From Steromphala cineraria (taxonomy: Eukaryota; Mollusca; Gastropoda; Trochida; Trochidae), in the NCBI GenBank assembly GCA_916613615.1, contig OU744720.1, positions 74,737,338-74,801,337 of the forward strand: 64,000 nucleotides of DNA, written 5' to 3'. This document shows, in pieces, positions 1-46,000 of the stretch; the first letter of the stretch is position 1, and every line of letters begins with the position of its first letter. A program made the position numbers and the translations under genes. Below the pieces are notes generated by a model, which saw only the letters and a program-made list of their open reading frames with translations, searched no databases and was not told where the DNA came from.

Positions 1-101
1 CAATGTAAGCACTTCGTCACAATGGGTGCCGAGTCGCGGAACTGTTAGTTTCAGCACATTTTCGGCAAGTTTGCATGATTTTTAGGGCAAGTAATAATCA
101 G

Positions 102-241
102 AATACTAAACTTCCTTCCATTTAATACTATTTTTATTAAACTTGTGAATGATTTGGTATCAAACTCGCTTTTGCTCGTTTAATACAAAATCATTAACTC
201 GTTTAATAAAAATAGTATTAAATGGAAGGTCGTTTAGTATC
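102..241. mobile_element. Foldback MITE, family 1 (SCAMP intron)
   Basis: Arms of about 30-40 bases begin gaatactaaac and end gtttagtatcc. The inner arms carry ccatttaatactattttt and its complement around a ~45-base centre. No coding capacity. Its end motif (GRATACT-AA) is shared with the element at 2524-2682. Confidence 0.75.
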
Positions 242-365
242 CTCTATGTATTTATGGGGATGTGGCAGTGAAATTTGACTAAATTCAAACCACAATATTT
301 TCAAAGTGTCTGATTTCAAGATTTATTTGTCTTTGAAAATAAGGCTCTTCATGTACCTATTTCAG

Positions 366-473
366 GACCCGTCAGTACAGCAGGCTGCAGGGAAGGGGGG
401 GCAGAAGCCGGGAGGTGGCCTCGATGATTACAACCCCTTTGCTGAGGGCAACCAGACCAGGCCTGCATCAGGG
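366..473 (+). CDS. SCAMP: SCAMP exon: N-terminal cytosolic part with NPF motif
   Basis: It starts after a tttcag acceptor, ends before gtgagc, and has phase 0 at both sides (36 codons). It encodes DPSVQQ, a Gly-rich linker and [10 protein letters not shown]. The NPF tripeptide is the family's EH-domain binding motif. The initiator Met is not in this exon. Confidence 0.92.
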
Positions 474-3400
474 GTGAGCAAAACCTTCTTTTTTCGTTGT
501 TATTGCTTTGTTTGATTTGTTAGTTGAAGATTTTTTTTAACAGAAATTTAAAACCTCAATTTGATAGAAAAGCACATTTATTGTGATATTTCAATTATAA
601 AATTTATGATGAATCAATAATACATGTACCACTTTCATGTATAAAAACAAAGATATTTTTCTAATGAAATGTATCCATGTTTCTGGTGCTTTAGATGTTC
701 TTGTAAACTTATCATTTGAGCATAAAGGTTTTGTCAAGATTTGAGGGTATCTTTTCTATTACCACTGGTGTTTTTTTCATCTTTAATTCTAATTGAGAAA
801 ACGTTACATGCAGTCAACCGCCTCAAACTCACCGCTGGTGCCGCCTCCCCAGCCGGCCCAGACACAGCCGGCCATCATGACCCCGTCTGAGGAACCCCCA
901 CCCCCTTACACCCAGTCCTCCGCTCAGAAGATAGACACCAGCGAACTTCAGAGAAGACAAGAGGTATGCACTACCACTTTGACTATTGACTATATTCATA
1001 TCTTTTATTGGAGAACTATGACCTGTTGAAAGTTATAAGCATATAATTTTCTAAAAATAATTTTTCACTGTTATATACTAGATAAAATATATTATTATCT
1101 GATCAGCGATGAAATACTGGGTTTTATCAGTGAAATAAACTGTCTATCAGGCAACAGTGATGATATATGATATTTTCACTGTGACCAGTGTTTCCGGTGA
1201 CTTTTTAATTCGCCGGTACAGTGTACAGACAGGGGTAATATTTACCGGTACAAAATCAAAATCGCCGGTACCATGTAATTTTTGAATAAAATAAACCATA
1301 TTACACAACAAATCAAGAGACCAAGCACAAATATCAGTCAGCACAGCGAGTTAGCGCGAGTCGATGTTAACACAGGAAGCAACTTGCACAATCATCGAGG
1401 TCATTTCTATATTGAACTTGTAAAATAAAAGTACTTCTTGTTGTGTTGTTGTTTTTAATGAAAATATACAAAGAGAAGTTGAAAATATACGTAGATATTA
1501 AAGAAATATTCAAGCAACCTTCACATACTGTTACACTTCGGCAGATCGATGATCCGATGTGGCTTCACTCGCACCCACGATCGGAAATTGAAACCTGATT
1601 TTCCAAATATTATCAAGAGTTATTACTTCAAAAGGCTTGTTGTCCATTTTAAAGGATTAATAAGATATATTTCCAAAGTTATCAATCACATTTTATCGAA
1701 ATTCATTCAAATCTTTGTCAAAGATACACTCGCGCAAGCACGATGATTTACATTACTTTGAATTTCAATCGTAATATCGTGACGACAAATAACATTCCTT
1801 ATATAATATTGTGCTCCTGGTTATATTTCTGATCGTTATTCTTCGACATTTATACACACAAATATTTCAATTAACTTCATTTTAATTTTGAAAAAGTGAA
1901 ATAGAAATCGTGAAAGAAAATCTGGTATATTTACACAATTAATATTGTATCGACAAAATGTTGTCATGAAATTATTACGACCACGTTTACATGTTTCGTG
2001 CATCTTTTTAAAACCGACTTTCTGATTGGTTGACCTACATGATTAAGCCAATGAAAAGGCTTGTAAGAAATATATCATTTCCAGTAAACACTTCATGCAT
2101 CAAAGGTTGTTGTTGACTGTCGTTCGTTAAGAATTTGTCGAGAATAATATGTAATATGATTAAAACAAACAACAAACACCGTAAGTGAACACTTATAATT
2201 TCTTTTATAGTTTTTGAAAGTAATATACGTCTTCAAATAAGTCAAAGTTCTATTTCAGCGAAAAGACAGTATGATAAAATTGACCAATTTTTACCGGTAC
2301 ACTGTACCGACGGCGCTAGAAATTACCGGTACATTGAATAATTTATCGGTGAAATACCGGTAATTACCGGTTAACGGAAACACTGTGTGACCAGTGACGA
2401 TATATTATATCGTCACTGGTCAGATGCCGGAACTACTTTCAGCCATGTGAACAAAAGGGGGTAACTTTCCAGTTTTAAAGTCATTTTAATTGCATATTTC
2501 ATTAATAAATCATATAATAAATAGAATACTTAATGTGTTTTTTCAAATACCAGGTTTATTTCATCTCGTGACATGGGTAAAGTTAATATTTCACTCGTGG
2601 CTGCGCCACTCGTGAAATATCAACTTTACCCATGACACTCGATGAAATTAACCTGATATTTGGAAAACACCATTAAGTATCCTCTATATCTTTTGCATTT
2701 ACTGTTATGATTTTTATAACATGAATATATTCATAACAACCTTTTGATTAGTAGCCTAACTCCAAGCAGTGCCTTTCAATGTTATTGATAATAGTGAACT
2801 GTTAGGAGCTATCAAACTCTTAACATTGCTACATGTGTTAAATAATTAATAGAGATTACCCTGTAAGGAGTTTAGCATTGTACAGGAAGTAGAGGTCTGC
2901 ATGGTTTGAATGTCAAGGTGACTTTTTAAAATCCAGCTTGTTAATTCTTTTAATGTTAATTTTTCATAAAGGGAAGGGTGAAGTATTCTTCAAATAATTT
3001 TAAAGAAGGTTTAAACTGTTGAGTTGCCTGAAATTTAATGTGTTTTGGAAAAAAACCATTTAACCCTCAGAAAATCCTATGAATGAGTTTAGCCAGTGAT
3101 TTAGGGGAGTCTCAGGAAATGTTCATGGTGTTCCTTATTGTTATCGAAAGTAGAATGTTTTGCTCAAGAAACACCTTTCTCCACTATTCCTACATAGAAG
3201 CTGAATATTTTGCAGTGCTCTCACTATTGATACTGAATTGCTGATAATAATCAGACTTAGGAGAACTAAGATAAGTTTCTTTGTAGTTCTCATGAAATAT
3301 TTGTATGTTTTCAGGAATTAGAAAAGAAAGCTGCTGAACTCCAGAGGAAAGAACAAGAGATGAAGAACATGCAATATAAAGGTAATATTATTTCTCTTTT

Positions 3401-6400
3401 GAAAAAAAAACCCTCATATGATAGAAAAGAGTGGTTGGTACAGCAGTGACAGAAAATTTCAGAACATTAAAAGAAAATGTTGTACTAATGTGAAAATAAC
3501 CAGTAGCTAATCATGTTTTGAGTAAGTTCAAGACTACCATATCAAATGCTAGTTTTGTGTTTATGCATAAGTTTGTAAGTTTTTAAGCAATCATGACATT
3601 TAAGGACAACAATGTCAGACAACTTCTTTATACTTTGGATGTGACAGTTGATTCAGATTCTTGTAAATCCATATTTTTAAGCTCTTACAATAGATAAAGA
3701 GTTTCCTACAACAATAAATAGTTTTGTTTTGAAGTATACATAAGGTATTCAATGTAGGTATGCAAAACTGTGTTATAGATTTAGATTATTGTTCATGAAG
3801 CAATTCGAGCAAATGGGATTTATCCTAAATAAGGAAACTTTGATCAAATAATGAATACATCAAACCAGCTATAGATAAATAAAGCAAGATAAACTTGTCC
3901 AAATGTATTGTGAAAAGATCATTTGTGAAAGGCGATTGAGTCTATCGTGATATGAATCATTGCAACCTCAATGTATTGCTACACCTGTAAAGTGTGGTAC
4001 AGACAAGTGTCTTACTGGTTTTTATGTGCATATGACTATTCAGATCGTCAGAACAACTGGCCTCCCCTTCCTTCCTGGTTCCCGATGGGTCCTTGCTTCT
4101 ACCAGGACTTCAGTGTAGATATACCGTTAGACTTTCAGAGGATTGTCAAGTTTGTCTACTATCTCTGGATGTGTAAGTAGCAGTCTACTCTAAATAATAA
4201 TGTTTTAATTCATTCGGAAGGAGCTGCTCATGGCTGTAAGATTGGCGAATTGGCGCTAAACTTCAACTCAATTACTTATTCAATATGTATAGGTTTTAAA
4301 ACACCAACTTGGTAGATTCATAATCTTTTGACTTTCAACTGTAGCAAACATTAGGTTTTGATCAAACTGATGTTTACTGAATGTCCAAAAAGCCATGTGT
4401 TTGTATTTTTGTAAATTTCAAAGTGCATTTAAAATTTTGTGTAAGTGCTTACTGCTTAAGATATACATTGTCTCTGGATTTCATTGTTTTGCCATTTGTA
4501 TGATTACATCCTGATATCCTTGTAATATCGTATCTTCTTTCTTTCAGTCCATGTATTTGTTTTGTTTCTGAATGTTCTGGCGAGCTTGGCTTACTTCATC
4601 GTTGATAGCACCGGAGGAACCACATTTGGATTGTCCATTCTCTGGTTCATCGTGTTTTCCCCATGTTCTTTCATATGCTGGTATCGACCTCTTTACAAAG
4701 CTTTCAGGTAGGATTCAGGAATCACTTGAATTTGAGAAGCTAAGGTGTCATGGTTACCAAAAGAAATGTATGATTTGTAGAAATTGTAGAAATTGTTGTA
4801 AGGAGCTTTGTAAAAGAGGTCTTGAGTGAGTTATCATACGAATCATACACAAAATCTCTCTTAACGTGAGTCCCTAGTCATAGGTTGTTGTTGTTTACTG
4901 TTAGAATAACCAATAAAAATCAATACATATCTCTAGTACCATGTTAAATTTTAAGAGAAAGAGACACAAGAGAAACAGAAGTTGTTTTCATTACATATTA
5001 GTTTGAATTGTTTCTCAGCCTTTAACTCATTGCACATTAACATTGGTTTAGGTCAGCTTTTGTAGGAGCATAGAAAAAGGAACAATCTACATGATAAAAA
5101 GTAGCAAAGATTGAAAACTTTAAAGGGGCAGTAGCACGTTTTTAAGGGGAGTATAAGGTGATGTCAGGAAAATGAAAATACATTGTTCCAATCTAAAGAC
5201 AATGTATAAAAACTACATGAAGCAGTAATAAATCAAATATATAATGTAAAACTAAGCCATGCGATTCCTTTTCTTACACAAAATGAATAAAAGGTGTTCA
5301 CACAAAAATGGCTGCCAATGGATTTTATGTGAATCATTATACTTTCTTCTCTGACTATGAATGATTGGTTTGTGTAATGAGATTTTTGACACTGTCAAAA
5401 TGATACATTTAGCATTAACTTACAATTATCAGTGAAAAATCAAAAATATAAAATTGTCAAAAAACGTGCTACTGCCCCTTTAAGTGACACTTTCCTTGGT
5501 CTCACATTTCAAAGAACAATTTCTATCAAGACACGTCTATTTTTTGTGTGTCCTAAGATCTTATGTGAATATGCAAATCGGCTTGTTTTCCAAAGGCTAG
5601 GAACAAAAGTGTTGTAAATTTAAAGATTTGTGTCTTTTGACTTTTGATTTTCTAAATAGTTTTATTTCTTTTCTTTTTCAGGAGTGACAGCTCATTCAAT
5701 TTCTTCGTGTTCTTTTTTGTATTTTTCTTTCAATTCTGTGTCTATGTCATTCAATGCTTGGGAATCACAAACTTCACAGTGTGAGTATTATTCTTTTTTA
5801 TTAATTGTTTATAGATATTCAGCAAATCATATAATATTTTCATTGATTGTTGAGCATTTTGTACCCAGAAGTGGAACCTAAGATCAAAAAATCAAGAAGC
5901 GTTAGTTTTTTAAATGACTTTGATAACTATGGTAGTTAAAGTTACATATCTTCTTCAAGTTGTAGTAAATCATTGTGAAATTCTAGTGTTTAGTGTTATT
6001 GCCATATATTTGTCATGAATAATATAAATATGAAGGGAACTCTTTGAGATTTGATCAGGTCAATTATCTTCAATGCATTTAGAGATAATGTGACTATTAG
6101 AAATATTTTGAGAAAGAATGGAGGTATAGGATACTTTTGTCACAATTTAACAATACGATTTAAAATTCCAAAGATTAAAACGGTATGTTAAAAGACAATT
6201 TACATTCAGTCGATGATCATTATCTATCTATGATAAGGTGTAAATTATGCTAAAGGCCTATACTGTTAAACATTTTGTACTGAAATGTAACTCGGTTAAT
6301 CCAAGTCTGAAATTTGTTCACTTGGATACCTGAGATGTAACAGAGAATGTACAGTGAGTGCAGCCCTTCATAAAGATTATTAACAACAAAATTTAACATA

Positions 6401-9400
6401 TAAAGACACCTCTACGTTTCAGTGGCATCATCACAGGCCTAACGACAGTACGCGCAAGCGTGGCTGCAGGCCTCATCATGATATTTATTGGAATCTTCTT
6501 TGGCCTGTTGGCCATAATAAGCTTTGCCACCCTAGTGAAGGTAGAGTCACGGATGTTACCTGCCACCTGGTGGCGGGCGAGGGCTGGCTGGCTGGCACTG
6601 CATTCCCTAGGGGACATTTGTCATCTTGTGTACACATTCAAACTCGCACCCTTATGCTTTAACACCACTCATCGCTTAAGTATCGCCGAAGTTGTGCCGA
6701 ACAACCACCAATTCACTTATTTTCCTCAATAATATAATAACATTTGGGTGTAATTCTGTAAATAATACTCAAATTTAGGATCTAAAATGAGTGTCCTAAA
6801 AGAAAACATTCTCTTTTACGATTGAATCAGCCTTGAAAAATTAAATCTTTGTACCAGTTGTGTTTGAGGAAATCGGACAACATATAATTTCAAGTTAATG
6901 TGAATAGGTATGTTCCTCTTATTCTGTTTCAAGAAGGCAAAGTTCCAATGTGTACACAACTTGACAATTGCTAGAGACTGTTGCTTCTTGGGGCATTACT
7001 CAGCTGTCATCTTGTATGGAACTTGAAGTTCAAATAACAAACTTACTCAGTCATTTCATCACTAGAGATTTTCTCTGGTACATTAGCATATCTACCGGTA
7101 ACCATTAAATCATATTCCATATTCCTCAATGTTTTTACTAATATCAAGAATAATTCAACCAGCCCACTTGAAAAATGGCTTCCAAATCAATGACTCTTAG
7201 AGGCATTTTTAGGCTCTTAGAAAATTAATGGCCAGATTTAAACCAATATTTCCACTGTTTCAGTACTTATTTTAACGGACTGATAACATATTGTAAAGCT
7301 TGCATATATTTCACATTTGGTCACAATAATTCAAAATGTCTGAAAGCTGAACCAAGAACCATGCAAGTGATAGCTGAGTGAGCACTCTGAGTTGTATATT
7401 AACAGCATGTTCATGTTGTTATATGCTACCACTGTCTTGATGGTATTCAGTTCCTCTCCTATCCTAGTCATTCTGTCGCATTAGTAATGTTTTTCTATTG
7501 TAGAGGATGGATTAATGGCCTGTCAGCGTTATCAGTCAGCACAGGGGCAGCAGCAGTAATGCTGTTTGTAGCCTTCTTTTTTACTCTCAAGGCAGTTGCC
7601 TGCATCCTGTTGCTAATCCGGGTAGGTACTTCTTGGTACAGAAGTGTGGAATTAGCTATAACCTAGCAGGAACAGAACAATTTTCTACCAAACGTTTAGC
7701 TTTAATCTATCACTATGTAATTGAACTTTACAATATTAGTATTAACCCTTTCATCCTGAACCTGATTTCTGGCTTGTAGGAATGAAAGGGATAAAAGTAG
7801 TTAATGCTGACGCAACTAGTGTAATTGAACTTTACAATATTAGTATTAACCCTTTCATCCTGAACCTGATTTCTGGCTTGTAGGAATGAAAGGGATAAAA
7901 GTAGTTAATGCTGACGCAACTAGTGTAATTGAACTTTACAATATTAGTATTTACCCTTTCTTCCTGAACCTGATTTCTGGCTTGTAGGAATGAAAGGGAT
8001 AAAAGTAGTTAATGCTGACGCAACTAGTGTAATTGAACTTTACAATATTAGTATTTACCCTTTCTTTCTGAACCTGATTTCTGGCTTATAGGAATGAAGG
8101 GATAAAAGTAGTTAATGCTGACGCAACTAGTGTAATTGAACTTTACAATATTAGTATTAACCCTTTCATCCTGAACCTGATTTCTGGCTTGTAGGAATGA
8201 AAGGGATAAAAGTAGTTAATGCTGACGCAACTAGTGTAATTGAACTTTACAATATTAGTATTTACCCTTTCTTCCTGAACCTGATTTCTGGCTTGTAGGA
8301 ATGAAAGGGATAAAAGTAGTTAATGCTGACGCAACTAGTGTAATTGAACTTTACAATATTAGTATTTACCCTTTCTTCCTGAACCTGATTTCTGGCTTGT
8401 AGGAATGAAAGGGATAAAAGTAGTTAATGCTGACGCAACTAGTGTAATTGAACTTTACAATATTAGTATTTACCCTTTCTTCCTGAACCTGATTTCTGGC
8501 TTGTTTGGATGAATGGGATAAGAGTAGTTAATGCTGACGCAACTAACGTGACTAGAAATCAATGTGCTAGTTTCAGTAATATCAACAGTAATCTAGCGGC
8601 AAGATGTAAGGATTTTGTAATCACTGTGAAACTGATCTAAGAATAGCAGTTAAGTCTTTAGCAGTCGACAGGTTTCAAGTTTAATGCTTAAATTCCCCAC
8701 CATGGAAGCTTTGATATATATAGGTTTGGGAAAAGCAAGGAATTGTAAACTTACAAGGCAGGATAACATTGAGACATTGCAATTTTGTTCGTGCTGACAC
8801 AGGTGATTGAATATGTTACCTTATTAGCAAATCTGAAAAAAATTTGAATTCATGTCAGGGGAATTTCAGTTTAATTGGTTTGATGCGCATCTGTGTAAGT
8901 ATTTTGTTTATTCTGACAACAGTCATGGTTCAAGAAGAAAATATGCTAGGAAAACAGTAACCTTGGTTGTGGATACCACTTTCAGATATGCACTTGTCTG
9001 ATTAGCTGGTATATTTTTCCAAATAATTATCATCCTGAAAAATGAAATTTCATTTGAGAAACTAGCTATCTGGTTGTAGATTTATGGTATTGGTGGTTAT
9101 TTATCCAAGTTGATGGTGTGGGATTTATTATATTCACATATTGGGCCTTTTTGGGGATGATTTTACAAATCGTTAACTGTAGACAGCTTCCCTTCTTTCC
9201 ATAAAATGGTTTCATTTTTAGCTCATCTGGCCTGTAAGGCCCGATGGGCTTATGGCATGGCATGGTGTCCGGCGTCCATCCGTCCGTCAAACTGTCAAAC
9301 TTTGTGTAATTTTGATTTCTTCTTCAGAACCATAAGGCCTAGAAAACTGAAACTTTATGTGCAGACTCCTTGACTAGTGAGGATTATAAATTGTAACTTT

Positions 9401-11438
9401 GGTGGCCCTGTGGCCCCTAATAAGGGTCACATGGGCCACATGCTTAAAACCTATTATCATCCTCTATTTCATAAATATAGGGCCTAGAAAGCTGAAACTT
9501 TGTGTACAGACTCCTTGACTAGTGAGGATTATAAAATGTAGCTTTGGTGGTCCTGTGACCCTGTGGCCCCTAATATGGGCCACAGGGGCGACATCCTAAA
9601 AACCTATTTCCTCCGTCTTCTCCAGAAGCATATGCCTAGAAAGCTGAAATTTTGTGTACAGACTCCTTGACTAGTGAGGATTATAAATTGTAGCTTTGGT
9701 GGCCCTGTGGCCCCAAATAAGGGCCACAGGGGCCACACCCTTAGAACCTATTTTCCACGTCTTCTCCAGAACCATAAGGCCTAGAAAGCTGAAACTTTAT
9801 ACATGTACAGACTCCTTGACTAGTGAGGATTATAAATTGTAGCTTTGATGGCCCTGTGACCCTTAACAAGGGCCACAGGGGCCACACCCTTAAAATCTAT
9901 TTCCGTCTTCTTCTCTAGAAGCATATGCCTAGAAAGCTATACTTTGTGTACAGACTCCTTGACTTGTGAGGATTAATAATTGTAGAATTTGTAACCCTGT
10001 GGCTCCTACTATGGGGGAACCACATTGGCCACAACCTTAAGCAAAATCAAATGTAAAACCTGATGAGCTACAGAGCCAATGGCTCTATTTTTGGCTTATC
10101 AAACCTGAAGGCTTGATGGGCTTTGTTAAGTGTTCAGCATCGGTGTTTAATCCTGCTTTCGGACTTCTCCTCCAGAAGCAATGACCATAAGTTGTAGATT
10201 TGGTGACTCTGTGCACCTTTATCCCCTAAACATCTTCTTTTCCAGGATCAAATACTCTAGAAAGTTGTAGACTGTAGAATTGTCATACACTGATAAGTAC
10301 TTACGGAAGATTTATTCATGTTATTTTGTTTTTAATTATATGATATATCCTAATTTTCTCCCTCGTGATAATTTTCATGAAATTTTCGCAGTATGAGTAA
10401 GTTATGGCATGAACTCATTGTGTAGTAAAAATGTTGTGAGTACAATGTCATTGTCAACAAAAAATGCTTTAATAAGTACATGTATACCATGGCCACCCAA
10501 TCCTTATCCTACTGTTATGTTATAAGATATATCTGTTAATCTGTTAATGTAATATATTGAGGTGCATGCAACCTTAGTTGTTTGGACTATCATGTAATAG
10601 TATTTTTGTTGTTATTAATGTAAAGTTGAAATCATTCAGTTTTAAAGTTTTGTACACTAAGTTGACAGCATGTTTAGTTTAGCACAGTTGCAATAGTTAT
10701 GCATAGCACAGTTTTCTCTCTGATGTATATGCAACTAGTTGGTTTGGTTGTATGGTCTCCATAATGACATTATGATGCAATGAGACTATTTAGGACTGTT
10801 ATATAATTAATGTTGATAATAAACAGCTTGCATGGCTTTTATGCAGCCAGCCCCTTTGTTGTGAATATTCATTTACTAATATTTCTTGCCCTAAAATTTA
10901 AGTTAATAGAGCATGAAAAATTATCTGTTTTTTAAAGTAAAATCTTAGTTTTTTAATTGTTTTGAAATTTGAACATCTATATTTTATTTCAATTATAGAT
11001 AATCAAGAAGTTTATCTCCACTTTGAAGTCAATTTGTTACTGTTCTATTGCAACTGATGGTTATTAATGCACCATTATAAATACTTTCAGTGAAAAAAAT
11101 GACATATGTTTAAAAGAAATATTAATCATAAGGATGACCAAATTGAAAATTCATAAGCATACTGATGACGTTACACCCCTAAACACGTCTACATCTAAAC
11201 TGGATAATAAAGTAGTTGCTAACAAAGATTCTAATTCCATTCTCTAGTGTGACACTGATGTTTTCCCTGGCAGGTTCACAGGATCTACCGGAGCACTGGC
11301 GCCAGTTTCCAGAAGGCCCAGCAGGAATTTGCGACCGGCGTGATGCGCAACGAAGCTGTGCAGAATGCCGCCGCAAATGCCGCGTCTGGGGCTGCACGAG
11401 GTGCCGCTTCACAGTATGGGTCCGGCAACCGGTATTAA
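366..11438 (+). CDS. SCAMP: Secretory carrier membrane protein (SCAMP), 5'-truncated by window edge
   Basis: Multi-exon gene for a tetraspanning protein of post-Golgi and endosomal carriers. Coding exons are 366-473, 814-963, 3315-3381, 4044-4172, 4548-4707, 5682-5780, one of 6423-6540 or 7504-7621, and 11274-11438 (stop TAA). All junctions are AG/GT and phases join without error, giving 331 residues. Order of parts: a YNPF motif, a Pro-rich stretch, a short Lys/Glu-rich helix ([16 protein letters not shown]), NNWPPLP and [15 protein letters not shown]1, TM2, the cytosolic E-peptide-like [12 protein letters not shown]3, TM4, then [16 protein letters not shown] and an Ala-rich tail. These match SCAMP1-type proteins from memory of the family. 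The amino end (expected NPF repeats, about 15-20 residues) must lie before base 1. Known family role is vesicle trafficking and exocytosis; a specific role here is not shown. Confidence 0.95.
814..963 (+). CDS. SCAMP: SCAMP exon: Pro-rich N-terminal segment
   Basis: 50 codons, phase 0 at both sides, acceptor catgcag and donor gtatgc. It encodes a Pro/Gln/Ser-rich stretch with [17 protein letters not shown], which resembles the QPAIMKPTEE...YTQ segment of vertebrate SCAMP1, then the beginning of the helical region. Confidence 0.92.
1186..2385. mobile_element. Non-autonomous hAT-like DNA transposon
   Basis: 1.2 kb in the intron between the second and third SCAMP exons listed here. Ends CAGTGTTTCCG and CGGAAACACTG are inverted repeats. 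TGTGAC directly abuts both sides (1180-1185 and 2386-2391); an 8-bp reading TGTGACCA is possible if the left CA is target sequence. Both subterminal regions carry many CCGGTA motifs, typical of hAT transposase sites. No transposase remains. Its interior (about 1340-2240) is homologous, in reverse, to that of the element at 52363-53920. Confidence 0.8.
2389..2421. repeat. 33-base near-perfect palindrome
   Basis: Two 16-base arms (gaccagtgacgatata and its complement) with a one-base centre, directly beside the hAT-like insertion. With 1155-1185 it probably forms the remains of a foldback element that was the insertion target. Confidence 0.8.
2524..2682. mobile_element. Foldback MITE, family 1 relative
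   Basis: Long arms (about 70 bases) begin gaatacttaatg and end cattaagtatcc, closing on ccactcgtgaaatat and its complement around ctgcg. It would form a large hairpin. Intronic; no coding capacity. Confidence 0.8.
3315..3381 (+). CDS. SCAMP: SCAMP exon: predicted coiled-coil helix
   Basis: 22 codons plus one base. It encodes a charged helix, [19 protein letters not shown], placed as in the family just before the conserved NNWPPLP block. Acceptor ttttcag, donor gtaata. Confidence 0.92.
4044..4172 (+). CDS. SCAMP: SCAMP exon: conserved pre-TM1 block and start of TM1
   Basis: It starts after ctattcag and ends before gtaagt. It encodes the family hallmark [20 protein letters not shown], then SVDIP and the amphipathic lead into TM1 (VKFVYYLWM). 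Entry and exit phases complete Asp and Phe codons with the neighbouring exons. Confidence 0.95.
4548..4707 (+). CDS. SCAMP: SCAMP exon: TM1, TM2 and E-peptide
   Basis: Two hydrophobic segments (around [18 protein letters not shown] and [17 protein letters not shown]) are joined by a short polar loop. They are followed by [10 protein letters not shown], the cytosolic segment between TM2 and TM3 known in the family as the E peptide and implicated in exocytosis. Confidence 0.95.
5124..5479. mobile_element. TTAA-flanked MITE, copy 1
   Basis: 356 bp with 20-bp terminal inverted repeats, AGGGGCAGTAGCACGTTTTT, flanked by TTAA at 5120-5123 and 5480-5483. A TTAA target suggests a piggyBac- or Kolobok-mobilised family. 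It lies in the SCAMP intron before the TM3 exon. A second, inverted copy is at 24797-25139. Confidence 0.85.
5682..5780 (+). CDS. SCAMP: SCAMP exon: TM3
   Basis: It encodes [13 protein letters not shown] followed by an aromatic-rich membrane segment ending GITNFT. It ends two bases into a Val codon before gtgagt. Both alternative TM4 exons complete that codon as Val (GTT or GTA). Confidence 0.93.
6423..6540 (+). CDS. SCAMP: SCAMP TM4 exon A (candidate mutually exclusive exon)
   Basis: 118 nt; acceptor tttcag, donor gtagag. It completes Val then encodes 39 residues: [10 protein letters not shown], a hydrophobic span ([18 protein letters not shown]) and ATLVK, ending in phase 0. It joins in frame to the last exon ([12 protein letters not shown]). 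It has the same length, start phase and end phase as the exon at 7504-7621 and encodes the same structural element, so it looks like a tandem exon duplication. Joined to exon B it would read R-M-D-stop. Confidence 0.88.
7504..7621 (+). CDS. SCAMP: SCAMP TM4 exon B (candidate mutually exclusive exon)
   Basis: 118 nt; acceptor ttgtag, donor gtaggt. It completes Val then encodes 39 residues: [20 protein letters not shown], further hydrophobic residues ([17 protein letters not shown]) and IR. The GW(I)xxL opening is closer to the CGWISSL of vertebrate SCAMP1 than exon A is, so this may be the ancestral form. It ends in phase 0 and joins to the final exon. Confidence 0.9.
7717..8547 (+). repeat. 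104-bp minisatellite, 8 units, each a hairpin
   Basis: Units begin gtaattgaactttac at 7717, 7821, 7925, 8029, 8132, 8236, 8340 and 8444. One unit is a base shorter; the last decays at its end. Within each unit ccctttcatcc pairs with ggaatgaaaggg across a ~22-base loop. It lies in the last SCAMP intron, 95 bases after exon B. Confidence 0.95.
9218..10095 (+). mobile_element. Tandem-core repeat element, copy 1
   Basis: It opens ttagctcatctggcctg with a cgtccatccgtccgtc segment and closes gatgagctacagagccaat. In between are about five units of 143-152 bp (each with actccttgactagtgagg; starts at 9365, 9510, 9662, 9811, 9954) carrying ggccctgtggcccc and complementary stretches. The opening and closing motifs are complementary (gctcatc/gatgagc). 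The architecture recalls mollusc pearl/Helentron-type non-autonomous elements; that assignment is inference. Confidence 0.75.
10096..10290 (+). repeat. Decayed partial copy of the tandem-core element
   Basis: Directly after copy 1, ggcttatcaaacctgaaggc, gatgggctttg and ttctcctccagaagcaatg repeat the head of the same element in diverged form, followed by one worn unit. Confidence 0.5.
11274..11438 (+). CDS. SCAMP: SCAMP final coding exon
   Basis: 54 codons plus TAA after acceptor ccctggcag. It encodes [20 protein letters not shown], then [10 protein letters not shown], an Ala-rich tail and NRY at the end. The GASF.KAQQEF.TGVM block is a family signature of the cytosolic C-terminus. Confidence 0.95.
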
Positions 11439-14170
11439 TACAGGAGTCGGCCCGGAAGAACGTGACCTACATCTGGAAATGCATTGAGGCCTGTCTCATG
11501 GATGAGGCAGTTACCTCAAGTCGGCTGGAGCATGCGAGAACTATACAGGATGGAGGATTTTTGTTTGTTGCGAAAAGATTACAATTATTTAAAGATTTTG
11601 TTAAAGTTTTATTTGCATCCTCTATCTACCTGTCCCGTTTTGGATGTCGGCTCCACATACGTGGTTGTGTTGCAAAGATAAGGTCCTCAAGTATGGTTAG
11701 ATTTTATGAAGAAACTTGGCATTCTTATTGCCTATGGTTATTTGGTATTCATACTTCAGTTCTTAGTTGACATTCACGAGGACTTCTGTTGCTGTAGGTG
11801 CTTGCATGCTCACTCTCACACCTCCCTGGGTGGGAGAAGTATATATATATATATAAATATATAACAGGGACCATTCCACTGAGAGGCTTGTGACCCATGC
11901 CATGTCTCATTGTTGTGTATTATAGCTTTCGTGCTACACTTGTCATTCATTAGTTCCACATCAATAGTTCTATTATTCAATTAAGAAATAAATTACCTGT
12001 CATTTTTCACTCTGCAATGACAATGAGTGAAGGAGAATGATTTATTGAAATTTTTAATGAATTATGATTTTTTGTAATGTGTACATTTTCTTTTTCATTT
12101 TATCATGCCAGAAATAAAAAAAAAATCCCCTTAAAGTTTTAGTCTTATATGTGGTTGGTTTGTTGAATTCATGTGTTGTTTCAAATTATTCTTCAATAAT
12201 TGTGGTACTTTTCGTTATTTGAAAATTTGCATTGAAAAATTTCAAGGTTCATTGTCAAAACACATCAGGCAAGCATTTACATTTGTGCTTTGTGAATAGA
12301 TGTTGCATGTTAAACATACCTGCTTTACAATATAAGCAAGAAAAGAACAAAAAAATATGTGATTATCTACTTATTCCCCATAATTAGAAACCGTTCCTTT
12401 CAACGATGTTGTAACTTAAATCATGAAACATGAATTTCTATGTACTCTTCGGGAATTAAGGATTAAAGAACATGTATGACTTTAATCTTTACAATTTCTT
12501 GAATTAAACATCTGCATGATTTGTAAATCGGATTCATTCATTTCATTTCGTGTAGATACTTTGACAATGTTATGTATTATTTTATTTATTGTTTTGATAA
12601 AGTTTGTAATTGATTGGTATATTGACTATAACACCACAATATCTAGGAAATGGTAATTGATGTGAATCGAGGACAATTAAGCACAAAGTGACAAATAAGA
12701 AATGAAGATGATTCCTCGCTCGGCTGTAAATTGGCTTCCTTAAAGACCTTTACATATCTTCTTTGTCTTCTATTAACATCTTGCCATTGTAAATGTTACT
12801 GTTTCAAATAAATCAAATTCAAATTATCGTGATTGTTATAATGTTAATGTCATTCTAACCCTGATATTTGCAAGGGTTTCAAGCATATTAGAAAACTTCT
12901 TTTCGGGCTAGCATGAGTTTAATGTGGAAGATTTCAAAGCACAATCATCTTTTTCTGCACCAGTTTTGAATGTGGTGACCATGATTACAGTAGTAATGTA
13001 CACCTTAACAGAGGAAGCTATGTGTGTGAATCATGTTTTCATTTGGAAGAAATTATGATAATCTTTGTGCATGTAATTATACTACTAATTGAATTGTGTA
13101 TGTGCAAAATGAGAGGATTGTTAACTTTTCACATGATTTGAAAATTAACATTTTTTGTATGTAATCCATTTATCTACCACATTTAAAGAATTCATATATT
13201 CCATGAAAGTAGATAATGAAAGCACAAATGTTTGAATTCACCACAAAGATTTCACCTTGGGTTAGATTGCAGTATTGTAAGAAACTAGTACACCAAGTCT
13301 TATTGAAAGTAGATGTCCAGATTTTGAAATGGTTGTTACAGTCTAAGTTATGACTGAGATCTTTGCTCATCTTTAACATGAATGTAATACAGCTTGTGTT
13401 ATGAAGAATCTGCTCTCTAGTCTCTGCTATTAATAGCTTTGAGTAGTTTTCCATTCATGGATTGCAAATGTAAGGAATTCATGTGCAAGACAAATTTAGC
13501 TGCAAACTTATGCTTTTGTAAAAAATTTGGAATAAGAGCTTGTTCAGTTCATGTGGAAGTTACGTCTGAATTAAGGTTAATGTTATGGATGAAATAGCTG
13601 TACTAAATTAAGATTGCAAGGGATCCAATGAACATTCTTTCTTCAAAGACACCATCAGTTTCCATGTACAAGCAGTATGACTTTTCCAACATGATGTAAA
13701 GTTAGGTAAAGAAATTGAGAAATTCAGCATTTTAAGAATGATTCTCTGGAAACAATGAATTTTGAACAAAACTTGAAATTAAGAGGTCAAGAGTTGCAAT
13801 CTATTAACCATTCCAATGGACCCAAACAGTATCAATTGGCTCAAAATCGCCACTTTTTGAAAGAAATTTGGATATATACTCCAATTTATGAACTCTGTTA
13901 GATAAATTTCAACATAATCTGACGAAATTTCTAAAGTGATGAAAGTTAGTGCTGTTGTGTAGTTTCAACTAGAGCTCATCAGTTGCTGTCTTCTATCTGT
14001 CCACCACACAGAGGTTTAGAGTACACTGCACTGTTTCCTCATGCTTGTTGTTGGGTGCGTGTATAAAATGTGTCCTGTACAATATCCAGATTTGGTGACA
14101 ACTTTGTGGAAAAGTGAACTGTCAATAAATGAATATAAATGTAACGTGGTGTTTGTCTTTTTTTTTTAAG
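11439..14170 (+). other. Probable SCAMP 3' UTR and poly(A) region
   Basis: No coding signal follows the stop. AATAAA hexamers occur at 11987-11992, 12113-12118, 12807-12812 and 14124-14129. The last is the best-formed: about 20 bases later comes a GT-rich then T-rich stretch (gtggtgtttgtctttt), as expected downstream of a cleavage site. The segment also has a short (ta)n tract near 11841-11863. The true end, or use of several ends, cannot be decided from sequence alone. Confidence 0.55.
14124..14129 (+). terminator. Candidate distal SCAMP polyadenylation signal
   Basis: AATAAA followed after about 16-40 bases by a GT-rich and poly-T downstream element (14145-14168). Best of four candidates after the SCAMP stop; the 12807 hexamer is the main alternative. 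Confidence 0.5.
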
Positions 14171-40000: not shown

Positions 40001-43000
40001 TTGCTTGAAAGAAACAAGCAAATGGAAATCATTCACTGAATTCTAATTTACTAAACATTATTTTTCTCCCTTGCAGTCATAATATGGAAGAGTTACTTCC
40101 CTTTGTTCATCATTGACTGCAATCAGAGTGACCTTGTGTTGTTTACTTCATGTTGCACATGAAAAGGCCTTTTCTTATGTGCCCCTTGTCTTCAGTAGAT
40201 ATATGCATGAATGAACAACTAACTACAAGCGATATAAATAGCTCTAGTAATACAGGTGATATGATTACCTCAAACACTGCTTATCATGCAAGGGCCATAC
40301 TTGAGGCATTTGGCTTGTCTATATTATACAAGAAGGCTAGGGGACTGAGATGTGTTAAACATGAACCATGCAGAGAATATAGATAGTTTCCTAGTCTACC
40401 TAGAGACCACCGTAAGCATGAGAGCCAGTCAGCCTTGGCTTGTTGAAGTCAACCAAGATATATATACTGGAGCCTAGTGCAGGCTAGCATATCAGACATG
40501 ATATAAACTATAGAGAGAATCAGTACATTAGGTACACTTTTACACCAACCATTAAGGTCAACTGCATTCTCATGCTATATTTTTGACGTTCTTCAGTAAA
40601 GTTTAAAGGTTACGACTCATTAATAATTCAACATACACTTGAGTATCATCATATATATACAACTTACCACATACCGAATGTGGGTTAAAACAATGAAACA
40701 TCATACACTATCACTCATTAGTTACAAATATACCACACTGTCTAACAACAGTTCATATCAGGTCCTTTATAGCCAATGTTGTTCCATGGTGATCAGGTGA
40801 GGCAACGCTTGTAATGTTTTAACAACTTTCATAGATTAGTGCAAATAGGCAACTTTGTAAGTTCACAATCTACTCACTGCTGTTGACCAAAAATTAATTG
40901 AATCATCACCCATGTTAAAAAATTAAACGAATCATCTGCTTGAAAAGTAAAGGTCAGGGAATTTTCAATAGGTGGTTGTGTTTTTCCCTGTGAACTACAT
41001 TCAAAAATCTTGATTTATTCAAAGATTTGATGGGAACATATCCCAAAACCCTCTCCCTTTGGTTCACTACTTTTAACATTAATGTCAAAATAACTTAATA
41101 GTTGAGGTTGACAAAATACAAAGAAGAAGATATGGCCTCAGACCCGTCCAGGAACAACACTGGTAACGACAGAGTCACTAGAGTGTAAGGTATGCAGGTA
41201 TATATAGACATGTGGAACACCTACCCCTCTGTTGGTGGTGGGGTGTCTGACCCTCGACGGCTCCGAGTCCCTGTGGGGGGATGGGCCGTTATCAGGGGCA
41301 CTCAGCGACACCGGCGTCGACTGCGAATAAAAGGCAAACATTCAAACGTATACCAGCACCTTTGTCAAAATTTGGAAAAACATCTACTTTAAGACTATGC
41401 ATGATTAATTATAATGTTCTTTGGAAAATGGTTTTCTTTGTGTATTCAAGATTAATTCATTGGATTATATGTAGATGATTATTTGATGATTTGTTTGGAG
41501 AAGTATAAAATTATCAGCATGATTGAAATTAAAAAGGTTGATGAATATTCATTATTTATGAAGCTTGATACATGCGATCGAAAGTCCATACGTAATTTAG
41601 GATGCAGCAAAAACCAAGACATCCAAGCAAAATTTCATTGTTACTTTAAAAAAATAAATCTTAAATCAAATTGGTAAAACTAACCACAAGCAAAATCCCT
41701 TGATACAATTGTCATAAATATCTCTACATATCAGCTACATAACTACAGCAAAAATATGCAAACTGTATTTAGGTTATCATTTCAGCATATTGAGTATAAG
41801 GGTGGAAAATTACAAATATATATATTAAATTAATTGCTGAACAAGAGTTTCTAGGAACAAAACTCTATAATCACAATTGAAGACCTTTATCTTAAGAACT
41901 TAGTATTTTGCTCATGAATTCTCCTACATCAAATACTATTCCTTTGAGTGAACATGCTATTCACATTTTACAGAATCAAATACAGGGCTGTTGACTGTTT
42001 GTAGAAGCACATTAGAGACAAGTATATGACTATACAGTCTGCATAATCTGCTATACTACAAAGATGAAAACGTGCTGCAAGATTACTTGAGATCTCACCA
42101 CTTGGCGGCCGACCCAGTCAAATTGCCAATCACAGTCATAGCTCATCTTGTCCATGAGATCTGTCAGTAGTTTTCGCAGGTAGTCGTAGTCAGGGGTCTC
42201 GAAGAAATCCAACCGACGCACGTACCGCAGATACGTTGCTAGTTCATCTGAATAGATCACAAGTTTTCAACAAACATTTGCCAATAATTTAAGTGATACT
42301 AGTTGCCAACCTGAAGTTATTCTTGCCATTGAGAAAAGGTAATTTGATGTAAAGAAAGACACGAGTTGTGTCAAGAAATGAAAGGCAAACACTATTTACC
42401 CTAAATTTTGAAAAAGGTAAGACAATCAAAAATGTAACTTAATATTCTTTTCAACCGTTCACCTGCAAATGCAGTTAAATTTCGAAAATAAGGTCACAGG
42501 AATGATCAGGTACCAATTGACTTAACAGAAAATACATTTCTAATGTTAACACCGAGTTTCATGGCTTTTTAATGTTCATTTATTTGAAGTGTCCCTTTTG
42601 CAACAAACTGTTGAAATTACCTGGGAAATTTTCACACAAAACTTCAATAGGCGTGGCTCGTTTCGTGTCACCAATCTTCTGATACCTTTCTTTTAATGTG
42701 TCGGCTTTGAGCCCTTGCCATGGCAGACTGCCCCTCAAGAAGTACATGAACATGTGACCTAAAGCTTCTAAATCATCCCGCCGACTTTGCTCTAAAGAAA
42801 AATAATATATATTTTCACCCATTAGCTTCCTTTTGCAGGGAAAATTTACCCAAGAAGCTACCTTATAATTGACATAAAATATCTTTTGAGTATTACACAA
42901 TATCAAAGACATGACTTGTATCCAGATATATATATATGATCACATGTTAGTCATAATTTCACAACCAAAATAAAGGCCTCGGTTAAAAAAAAAAAATTCC

Positions 43001-46000
43001 CACATAGTCATTACTGGTTCAAACATCAGCTTAATAAATTTCGAACAGTAAGTAAGCGTAAGTTAATTGAAAGAAGGAATTTTTCAAAATTGAAAAATTC
43101 TCCCAGATGTAATTTTTTTAAAGACGTTCAGTTCATAAAGAAGTACTTCAAAGATCATTTTCTACAATTTTAAAATGAAAAAACTTGCCTAGCTGTTTTT
43201 GTAGATTAATAGACTGAGAAAGGCCTCACCTTTGCCGAGATGTGTGTTTATACTCATATATCTGGCGGTTCCTGTGAGACTCTTGTGCTCCCTGTAAGGT
43301 ATATGCTTGTGGGTCTCAGGGTCTATGTACTCTTTGGCCAGACCGAAGTCTATGATGTGAATGATATGCTGTTTTTTGGTCGATTGTCTCCCGATCAGAA
43401 AGTTTTCTGGTTTAACATCTCGATAAATAAGGTGTTTTGAATGGACGTATTCCATTCGTGATATCTGAAAATCACAACCAAAGACTCTTGACAAACATAA
43501 TAGATGTACATCTGAAATCATGTGTAAAAAGACCCATTATTGCAATTTTCACTATTGTTATCACATCAGGAGACTAATCAACCAATTGTTCTAAAAACAA
43601 TTGACAATGTCAAATTATTATTCAATCAATGATTAATCTTTTTATGAATAAAGATCCATCCATATAACTCTTGTGATGATTCACAAACCAAATGTTAACA
43701 TTTTAATGATATTTAGCAATAGCAATATTTCTTACCAACTGAATTGCTATCATGAGCACAGTTTTGAGTGAAAACTTGCGATCACACAAGTCAAACAGAT
43801 CTTCTAGACTGGGTCCCAGCAACTCCAAGACGAGGGCATTGTACTTGCCACATGGACCGAAGTAGTACACCTGAGGAACTCCATCTGCAACACAAACAAG
43901 TCTCTTTTAGTGCACACATTAATACACTGTATGGACACGGCCAGTCCACCAACCAGGGACCTGCCTATAATACAATATATGTAATGAAATAGTTTTTTTA
44001 TGTAACAGTAAGGAATCAAGATTTTAGTTTTGTTAGTAGTTCATATGTTTAGTTTGTTCAGTACACATTAAACCCACAAAGTGTGATGTTTATTTAAATC
44101 ATTGTATATAATCAGTTGAAATCATTGAGTGTTCCGCAAGAGTGTAAGTCAAATAATAACCTATGTCCTCGCAAGTGTATTTTTCATAGCTCCTTGGTAG
44201 GTTATCATTTTTTACGTAACTTGTTGCTGCCAAGTAGATAAAAATGACGGAATGCAATTTTTCAACTTATATCTACTAAATATAAATAGGAGATGCAGCT
44301 ATGTAGTTATTCTGCATTCACATATATAATTATGTATCGTTTTTATCCCTTATTCATATCTTGTATTCTCCTGGCTCCCAAATCAAGATACACAAATATT
44401 TCTATGTATTCCTTCACCGATTGACAAAAATGAAACCAAAAACTTCTTTCATAACTTTTCAAACACCAAGGTAAATGCACTGTGATGAATCCTTGTCTGG
44501 TACTGCACAAACTATGAACAATTGCAATACAACTTTATTGTGTACAACATATCTGAACCCCTGGTAGGGTTTGAACTCAGGAACTCTTCATCAAAGCTGA
44601 AATCACCAATCAATGTCCCTATCATAACTGTTAACCATATCATAGCACAAACTGTTATAGGCAAGATATAAATAAAAACATATTGATTCAGGCCATAGAA
44701 ACCAGGAATGTGATAGAAACTTGATATGACAGCTACAATCTCCTGTCTGATAAGGAAATCAAATCAACTGGTCATCAAGGGCAAGCTGTCTCTTGTTCAA
44801 CAGGAACTAGATGTTCAGCAAAACATGTTTAGTTTTAAACTGATTCTAAGGCATCTAACAATATTTGTATCAGTGCATCTTTAATCAAAATATTATAGCC
44901 GTAATATTTTCAGTTTAGGTATCCTTGCACTAGGAACCTCTAGGAAATGAGTAAGAATGTGTTATTATATAGATCAATATTTTTATATTTTTGAACTCAT
45001 CTATTCCCCCCCCCCCCCCCCCCCCCATTGTTTAATACCAAAAGGTCAAAGCCAAATGTGTAAGTTTTAAGATTAGGTTCAGCTTGAAAAGCTCTTCTAA
45101 AAGTCAAATATCAAACCTATTCATTCAGATTCCTTTTTCAGATGAAAAACAAGCATAGATAAAGTATCAATAATTCAATTTGACATGGTCGCTGCTTCAA
45201 GATGTCTGGAACAAATCAGATAAAATACAGTCTCGTAAAGGAGATAAGATAAGAAAACCTTAGAGGGGATTTACTTCAAATAAAATATTGCCCCTAGGCC
45301 CTAAACAAGAGTGATTGTGGACATTTACTGAAATGTGAAGGCCATGATTACGTAATCTGATTTAGTGGTAATGTATGATATTTAAGCTGAGCTTGACAGT
45401 GTTTTTGTGTCTTTCTGGAGAGAGACGAAAGCTGAGAGCGGTGGTTGCCTGTCAGCGGCTGATCATCTGAGATATGTCAACAGAGATTGAAGGGAAGTCT
45501 GAGGGAACTAGCCCTCTCTCTCTCCTCGGAGTGTCGACTCTTTGTTCAACTGCAAACACCTCTCATACATTGTTGAACCAACAGAAACTGCAGGTGAAGG
45601 CAAAGTAAAACCAGGAGTCTTAGTCTCTGGCCAAGTCAAATTTGCCAAGGTTTTTTCTTCCTGCATCCCTGTGCTCCTTATATGAGGGCTATGTATGAAC
45701 ATGAATTGTGGGAGGAAATATTGGTGTTTGTTCAATGAAGGACAAACAAGGTGAAAATGCTGAACTGTGTTGATCAACATATCATGTAACAGCAATGGCA
45801 TGCTTCCACAGAGTACACCAAATTCATCGACTGAAATTCTGATGTAATAACATACAAGTTGATTCTGGAGCGAAACAGAGCCTCTTATATTGACATGAGA
45901 ATTTAATTTCTTTGCTTTAAGGCTGACGTCAACTGGTGTTTTACAAAAATATTTACATGATTCCAAATTAATCAAATCTATAACTACTGACAGCAGAAAT

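Follow-up and report, generated by a model that had tools for sequence, protein, structure and literature searches.

SCAMPs are general trafficking proteins, and the stretch of DNA analysed here (64,000 nucleotides at its full length, hereafter the window) carries a SCAMP gene with two neighbouring exons, A and B, for the fourth membrane span (TM4). The question raised by this locus is whether the two exons are true alternatives, of which each productive transcript takes one, and, if they are, how old the arrangement is and what it does to the protein.

The gene and its duplicated TM4 exon

Nine exons of the gene, two of them alternative, lie in the window and all introns are GT-AG; with the first coding exon upstream of the window included, the whole gene spans more than 16 kb. 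The features are given below, with the evidence for each in brackets.

L003:4610-4666, about 5.3 kb upstream of the window: SCAMP first coding exon, MSGFDSNPFADPEGSSPFT, donor gtaagc (exon sequence)
366..473, + strand: SCAMP coding exon, N-terminal region (DPSVQQAAG...) (GT-AG, open frame; tblastn with Haliotis rubra P0003)
814..963, + strand: SCAMP coding exon (splice sites and frame; tblastn with H. rubra P0003)
3315..3381, + strand: SCAMP coding exon (splice sites and frame; tblastn with H. rubra P0003)
4044..4172, + strand: SCAMP coding exon, from NNWPPLP to the start of TM1 (splice sites and frame; tblastn with H. rubra P0003)
4548..4707, + strand: SCAMP coding exon, TM1-TM2 (splice sites and frame; tblastn with H. 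rubra P0003)
5682..5780, + strand: SCAMP coding exon, TM3, 99 nt (splice sites and frame; frame-by-frame scan)
6423..6540, + strand: alternative exon A, TM4 cassette of 39 residues (splice sites and frame; A-type clade 99/90)
7504..7621, + strand: alternative exon B, TM4 cassette of 39 residues (splice sites and frame; found by a B-type protein query)
7513..7515, + strand: TAA stop, in frame if A is joined to B (translated combination, K-R-M-D-stop)
11274..11438, + strand: SCAMP last coding exon, 54 residues ending ...GNRY, and stop (splice sites and frame; tblastn with H. rubra P0003)

With a slash for the splice junction, the TM3 exon ends at 5780 as AC-A-GT/gtgagt, exon A is bounded by ag/T GGC ATC ... 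GTG AAG/gtagag and exon B by ag/A GGA TGG ... ATC CGG/gtaggt, and the last exon starts at 11274 as ag/GTT CAC AGG. Both isoforms cover the Pfam SCAMP model PF04144 from end to end (1-172 of 172), isoform A with 191.1 bits (2.4e-56) and isoform B with 197.3 bits (3.1e-58), where the curated cut-off is 27 bits. The window protein also carries, between TM2 and TM3, the CWYRPxYKAF loop that is a motif of the SCAMP family. Among the best 120 of 2162 homologues, the protein closest to isoform B is a SCAMP1-like protein of H. rubra (89% over 95%), and the window gene and the H. rubra SCAMP, compared exon by exon with exon B left out, are 79-96% identical.

The initial annotation had described A and B as exons of equal length and common phase that each encode a 39-residue TM4 cassette, and its coordinates, lengths and phases are exact: each exon has 118 nt, supplies the third base of the shared Val codon (GTT or GTA) and leaves the frame at phase 0. 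Its further statements, that joining A to B leads to R-M-D-stop, that skipping both shifts the frame of the last exon and that only a single-choice transcript gives a whole protein, were confirmed by translating the combinations. A alone or B alone gives 331 aa ending ...GNRY (the count starting at the window's first exon). A joined to B reads K-R-M-D-stop; its TAA at 7513-7515 is 106 nt upstream of the point where exon B ends, and hence of the last junction, a position compatible with nonsense-mediated decay. Without either exon the shifted frame stops in the last exon, 22 residues past the shared Val, and because of that position such a transcript need not be degraded. Frame logic alone does not enforce exclusion at the splicing step.

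Exons A and B share 13 of 39 residues and 54 of 118 nt. The window contains, on both strands, 47 segments of the form AG-[118 nt open in phase]-GT, A and B included, and these two are the sole mutually similar pair among them: in an ungapped BLOSUM62 comparison with A, B reaches 68 and none of the remaining 45 segments exceeds -12 (mean -36, sd 11). Scanned frame by frame, the window shows no further TM4-like stretch (next-best scores 14 to 25) and no second TM3-like exon. As is characteristic of tandem exons, A and B are adjacent and homologous and occupy an equal place and phase, and using both or neither leaves no intact protein. The intron between them is 963 nt long, and folds of the exon regions hardly beat shuffles (z -0.96 and -0.94). 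Judged by duplex energy, the exon B donor (CGG/GTAGGT, -12.5 kcal/mol) is the strongest U1 match among the window's eight donors; the exon A donor (AAG/GTAGAG) reaches -6.9 kcal/mol.

The window gene is the only SCAMP gene detected in its genome, in whole-assembly protein searches that scored the best candidates (17 and 14) and that a very divergent paralogue could escape. When the 1.27-Gb assembly, in which the window occupies C1:74737338-74801337, was searched with the A-type H. rubra SCAMP, all eight matches at E < 0.01 fell in the window gene, and three further matches elsewhere in the assembly (E 0.37-0.57) had several stops each. With a B-type Physella query, all seven matches at E < 0.01 fell in the window gene, with exon B recovered, and an eighth (E 0.40) also lay inside it.

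Distribution and age of the two cassette types

Homologues were sampled as the best 120 of 2162 for isoform B, all 56 for the A-type TM4 region and the best 120 of 2144 for a non-mollusc profile. From these, 94 proteins were chosen, of which 89 gave a TM4 segment and five were without the anchor (P0073, P0075, P0079, P0135 and P0142); P0079 was restored by hand. With identical segments merged and two concatenated models split by hand, the final TM4 alignment has 80 rows, two of them from the window, and 39 columns. The protein library was clustered at 90% identity, at which TM4-only isoforms can merge, so that little can be read from a species in which one type is missing, and most of the named isoforms are automatic gene models.

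In this sample, A- and B-type cassettes are both present in Gastropoda, Bivalvia and Cephalopoda. In Octopus bimaculoides the A-type model X2 and the B-type model X6 agree everywhere except at residues 253-289, and in Saccostrea echinata the models X1 (A type) and X3 (B type) agree everywhere except in TM4; in the pairs from Ostrea edulis, Crassostrea angulata and Physella acuta (X6/X4), further variable segments differ besides TM4. Single polypeptides in which A is followed by B, the order of the window, are modelled for Mya arenaria and Nucella lapillus. Counting these, seven species have A and B on a same-size contig or in one polypeptide (O. bimaculoides, P. acuta, O. edulis, C. angulata, S. 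echinata, M. arenaria and N. lapillus), and we infer that the models on same-size contigs come from one gene. C. gigas has both TM4 types, its A form being without contig information, and the H. rubra SCAMP model among the matches listed is of A type. The listed A and B models of Bradybaena are on contigs of unequal length, and two A-type models of Babylonia are on different contigs, so some mollusc lineages seem to have more than one, paralogous SCAMP1-like gene. As a separate observation, the A-type TM4 cassettes of oysters are 8 residues longer.

In a tree of the 80 TM4 segments, the 27 A-type rows, which come from gastropods, bivalves and cephalopods and include that of the window, form one clade (99/90), which is recovered at 98/65 after leaving out 14 long or doubtful rows. 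The trees were midpoint-rooted, and the bootstrap of the 80-row tree was unsettled (0.896). In that tree a Capitella (annelid) cassette is the sister of the A clade (84/88), and bird and crinoid cassettes are on A's side of a weak first split; in the tree without the 14 rows, a Liolophura (chiton) cassette meets the A clade on a long branch. The B types lie outside the A clade, some of them beside amphioxus, nemertean and Owenia cassettes, and the deeper forks are weak. The AU test rejects A+B clades confined to one lineage for the window gene's lineage (p 0.014), Physella (p 0.0175) and Nucella (p 0.001), and fails to reject them for Octopus (p 0.343) and oysters (p 0.122); the tested groups were named after the first tree had been inspected, and 39 columns make the test weak for octopus and oysters.

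On the strength of the A clade as a whole and of the gastropod AU tests, on 39 columns, the A/B duplication is probably older than the divergence of gastropods, bivalves and cephalopods. The alignment across related molluscs that had been suggested for dating the duplication has thus pointed to a probable early origin, and the reading of A and B as mutually exclusive TM4 exons has gained from the presence of both types in three mollusc classes, from the isoform models that differ in TM4 only and from the single A-type clade. Twenty other rows of the alignment, which include Liolophura and one mollusc-like sequence, have W or F at position 2 in 19 cases, never L at position 17, and T or S at position 27 in 13. 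Since these columns sit closer to B, B may be the more ancestral-like form.

Five columns set the two types apart. Position 2 of the cassette is Ile in 24 of 27 A rows and Trp in 32 of 33 B rows, and position 17 is Leu in every A row (27/27) and variable among the 33 B rows (Ala 17, Gly 5, Val 4, Ser 3, Ile 3, Leu 1). Position 23, invariant Gly in A (27/27), is Ala in 27, Ser in 5 and Gly in 1 of the 33 B rows. Gly (18), Ala (7) and Ile (2) share position 27 in A, where B has Thr (17) or Ser (16); at position 29, A has Leu in 17, Thr in 4 and others, and B has Glu in 12, Cys in 11, Lys in 3, Asn in 2 and others. The A and B labels were drawn from the same sequences as these counts, so the separation, if not its breadth across species, is partly by construction. 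Such near-invariant, type-specific residues argue for two maintained functions. The initial annotation had also contrasted a basic VRAS segment in A with an Ala/Ser-rich one in B; VRAS is indeed found in window exon A, but the contrast is not conserved, the arginine position being R in 2 of 27 A rows (the window and H. rubra), K in 1 and G in 18.

In the AlphaFold models of both Physella forms, the cassette (A 250-288, B 267-305) is a short helix (251-258 and 268-275, respectively) followed by TM4. Block means of pLDDT are 94-98 for residues 251-290 of the A form and 91-98 for residues 261-310 of the B form; the whole models are middling, with a mean pLDDT of 71.8 each and pTM of 0.57 and 0.56. 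The Physella A-form model has long helices at 147-180, 182-217, 220-242 and 262-295, in agreement with the four membrane helices of the SCAMP family. No solved structure gave a convincing match.

Use of the two exons and competing explanations

Whole SCAMPs are encoded on contigs of about 1.15-3.5 kb, of A type in P0026, P0052 and P0063 and of B type in P0007, P0008, P0009, P0013, P0020 and others. These short contigs, from mollusc-like sources, are most likely transcripts, because they hold whole proteins in about 1.15-3.5 kb and the window gene takes more than 16 kb. The oyster B-type cluster P0021 has 55 contigs and the A-type cluster P0070 has one, in a clustering that can mix isoforms; these sizes, together with the stronger donor of B in the window gene, hint that B could be the default form.

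We consider it very probable that two mutually exclusive exons, arisen by tandem duplication, encode the TM4 of the window's single detectable SCAMP gene, giving two proteins in which only the 39-residue cassette differs. Each full-length mRNA would take A or B, and the resulting proteins would differ in the short helix after TM3 and in TM4 itself. B, with the stronger donor, would be used by default and A would require a regulator, and transcripts joining A to B would be cleared by nonsense-mediated decay. With A, the protein would have a hydrophobic helix that contains an invariant Gly and, in most cases, a G-x3-G/A motif; with B, Trp would stand at the start, Ser/Thr would substitute for the second small residue, and Glu, Cys or Lys would in most cases come two residues later. 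Exchanging TM4 in this way may alter helix packing or membrane partners, and hence the destination of the SCAMP or what moves along with it.

Other explanations of the pair were weighed. It is very unlikely that productive transcripts use only one of the exons and that the other is a decaying relic: window B does sit on an end branch of 0.5 with 67% identity to its nearest row, and a Haliotis B transcript or model is absent among the matches listed, but B retains an open frame, the exact 118 nt, the phase and both splice sites with the strongest U1 donor of the eight, and carries Trp 2, Thr 27 and, as a polar residue, Lys 29, while exon A is 92% identical to that of H. rubra. The joined A+B product could instead be the point of the arrangement, as a regulated 'poison' form that lowers the SCAMP level and makes the protein difference secondary. 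Its stop, 106 nt before the last junction, is what such an off-switch would need for nonsense-mediated decay; a poison exon, however, requires no conserved protein, and here both cassettes are kept as TM4 with type-specific residues in three classes, and models carrying A alone and B alone exist, which leaves this explanation extremely improbable.

We find it scarcely plausible, too, that exon A doubles as an alternative last exon and supplies a different C-terminus without VHRIYR... The idea draws on an open frame at 6424-6729 with its stop at 6730-6732, which carries A 63 codons into the intron (6541-6732), on the composition of that stretch (67% GC over the intron's first 60 nt vs 35% for 1-12000), on the scarcity of open runs of 189 nt in neighbouring introns (8 of 4876 offsets) and on an ATTAAA at 6840. 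Shuffles of the GC-rich stretch, however, stay open in 1385 of 20000 cases (7%), AATAAA is absent from the A-B intron, and no A-type segment ends in this way, in a set whose cutting itself required the VH-x-x-Y anchor. Mutually exclusive choice between A and B remains our preferred reading.

Possible further switches and known systems

TM4 is not the only variable span in mollusc SCAMP models. TM3 is the sole difference between Ostrea X7 and X8 and between Saccostrea X3 and X4, and in a pair of Mytilus edulis models all 7 differences among 333 residues fall in the TM3 exon. One Pinctada model has two TM3 segments in one polypeptide, and the Mya arenaria model P0062 joins three TM4 cassettes into one chain, an A, a B and another B. 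Between them, the oyster models show every one of the four pairings of TM3 and TM4 variants; the Ostrea X9 and X10 models omit TM3 entirely, a reminder that automatic models are not equal to transcripts. The models P0012, P0023, P0016, P0030, P0042, P0068 and P0069, of oyster, mussel and pearl oyster origin, were also noted for TM3 exons in alternative or tandem form.

With confidence evenly divided for and against, we propose that the mollusc SCAMP is splice-modular, with a TM4 switch that dates back at least to the split of the three classes, a second switch at TM3 gained in some bivalves (two variants in models of Ostrea, Crassostrea, Saccostrea, Pinctada and Mytilus) and a third TM4 cassette gained in Mya, the cassettes serving as alternative elements for membrane sorting or partner binding. 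Vertebrates diversify SCAMPs through several paralogous genes, whereas one gene was found in the window genome and diversity would come from exon choice. If the splice-modular reading is true, one gene does by exon choice what several vertebrate SCAMP genes do.

Alternative exons for one membrane segment are familiar from the exon 4 variants of NKCC2 and from segment exons of voltage-gated channels, with measured effects. The SCAMP switch resembles these in that one membrane segment is replaced and the rest of the protein is unchanged; it differs in that those cases are transporters and channels, and in that any effect of the SCAMP switch is a putative one. We know of no alternative splicing of SCAMP membrane helices, and the open-access literature searched (titles and abstract openings) contained no report of it, in keeping with the suggestion in the initial annotation that such a switch had not been described for SCAMPs. 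Public databases already contain both TM4 forms as automatic isoform models. The substitution of tandem-duplicated exons has been surveyed in human and Drosophila, where many cases are ancient (PMC9741552). The pair described here is like the tandem exons of that survey in consisting of neighbouring homologous exons of equal phase with one per transcript; it is unlike them in concerning a four-helix trafficking protein of molluscs, and SCAMP is not named in the survey's main text (0 occurrences).

The A/B TM4 switch is a real and probably old instance of a familiar type of splicing and, within the literature searched, an undescribed one. Kept across molluscs, it would amount to a natural experiment in which two proteins from one gene differ in one helix with a short list of defining residues, and the A/B pair makes the role of TM4 in SCAMP directly testable.

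Some further features of the window were recorded. The last intron, downstream of exon B, contains a tandem array of eight 104-bp units at 7712-8545 (97% matches) and another of about five 149-bp units at 9318-10015 (81% matches), with GGGCCACAGGGGCC within the unit. Farther along, an open frame at 42580-42939, for which Pfam gave no match, adjoins a protein kinase open frame on the minus strand at 43189-43536 (Pfam Pkinase, 3.7e-13), which resembles casein kinase 1.
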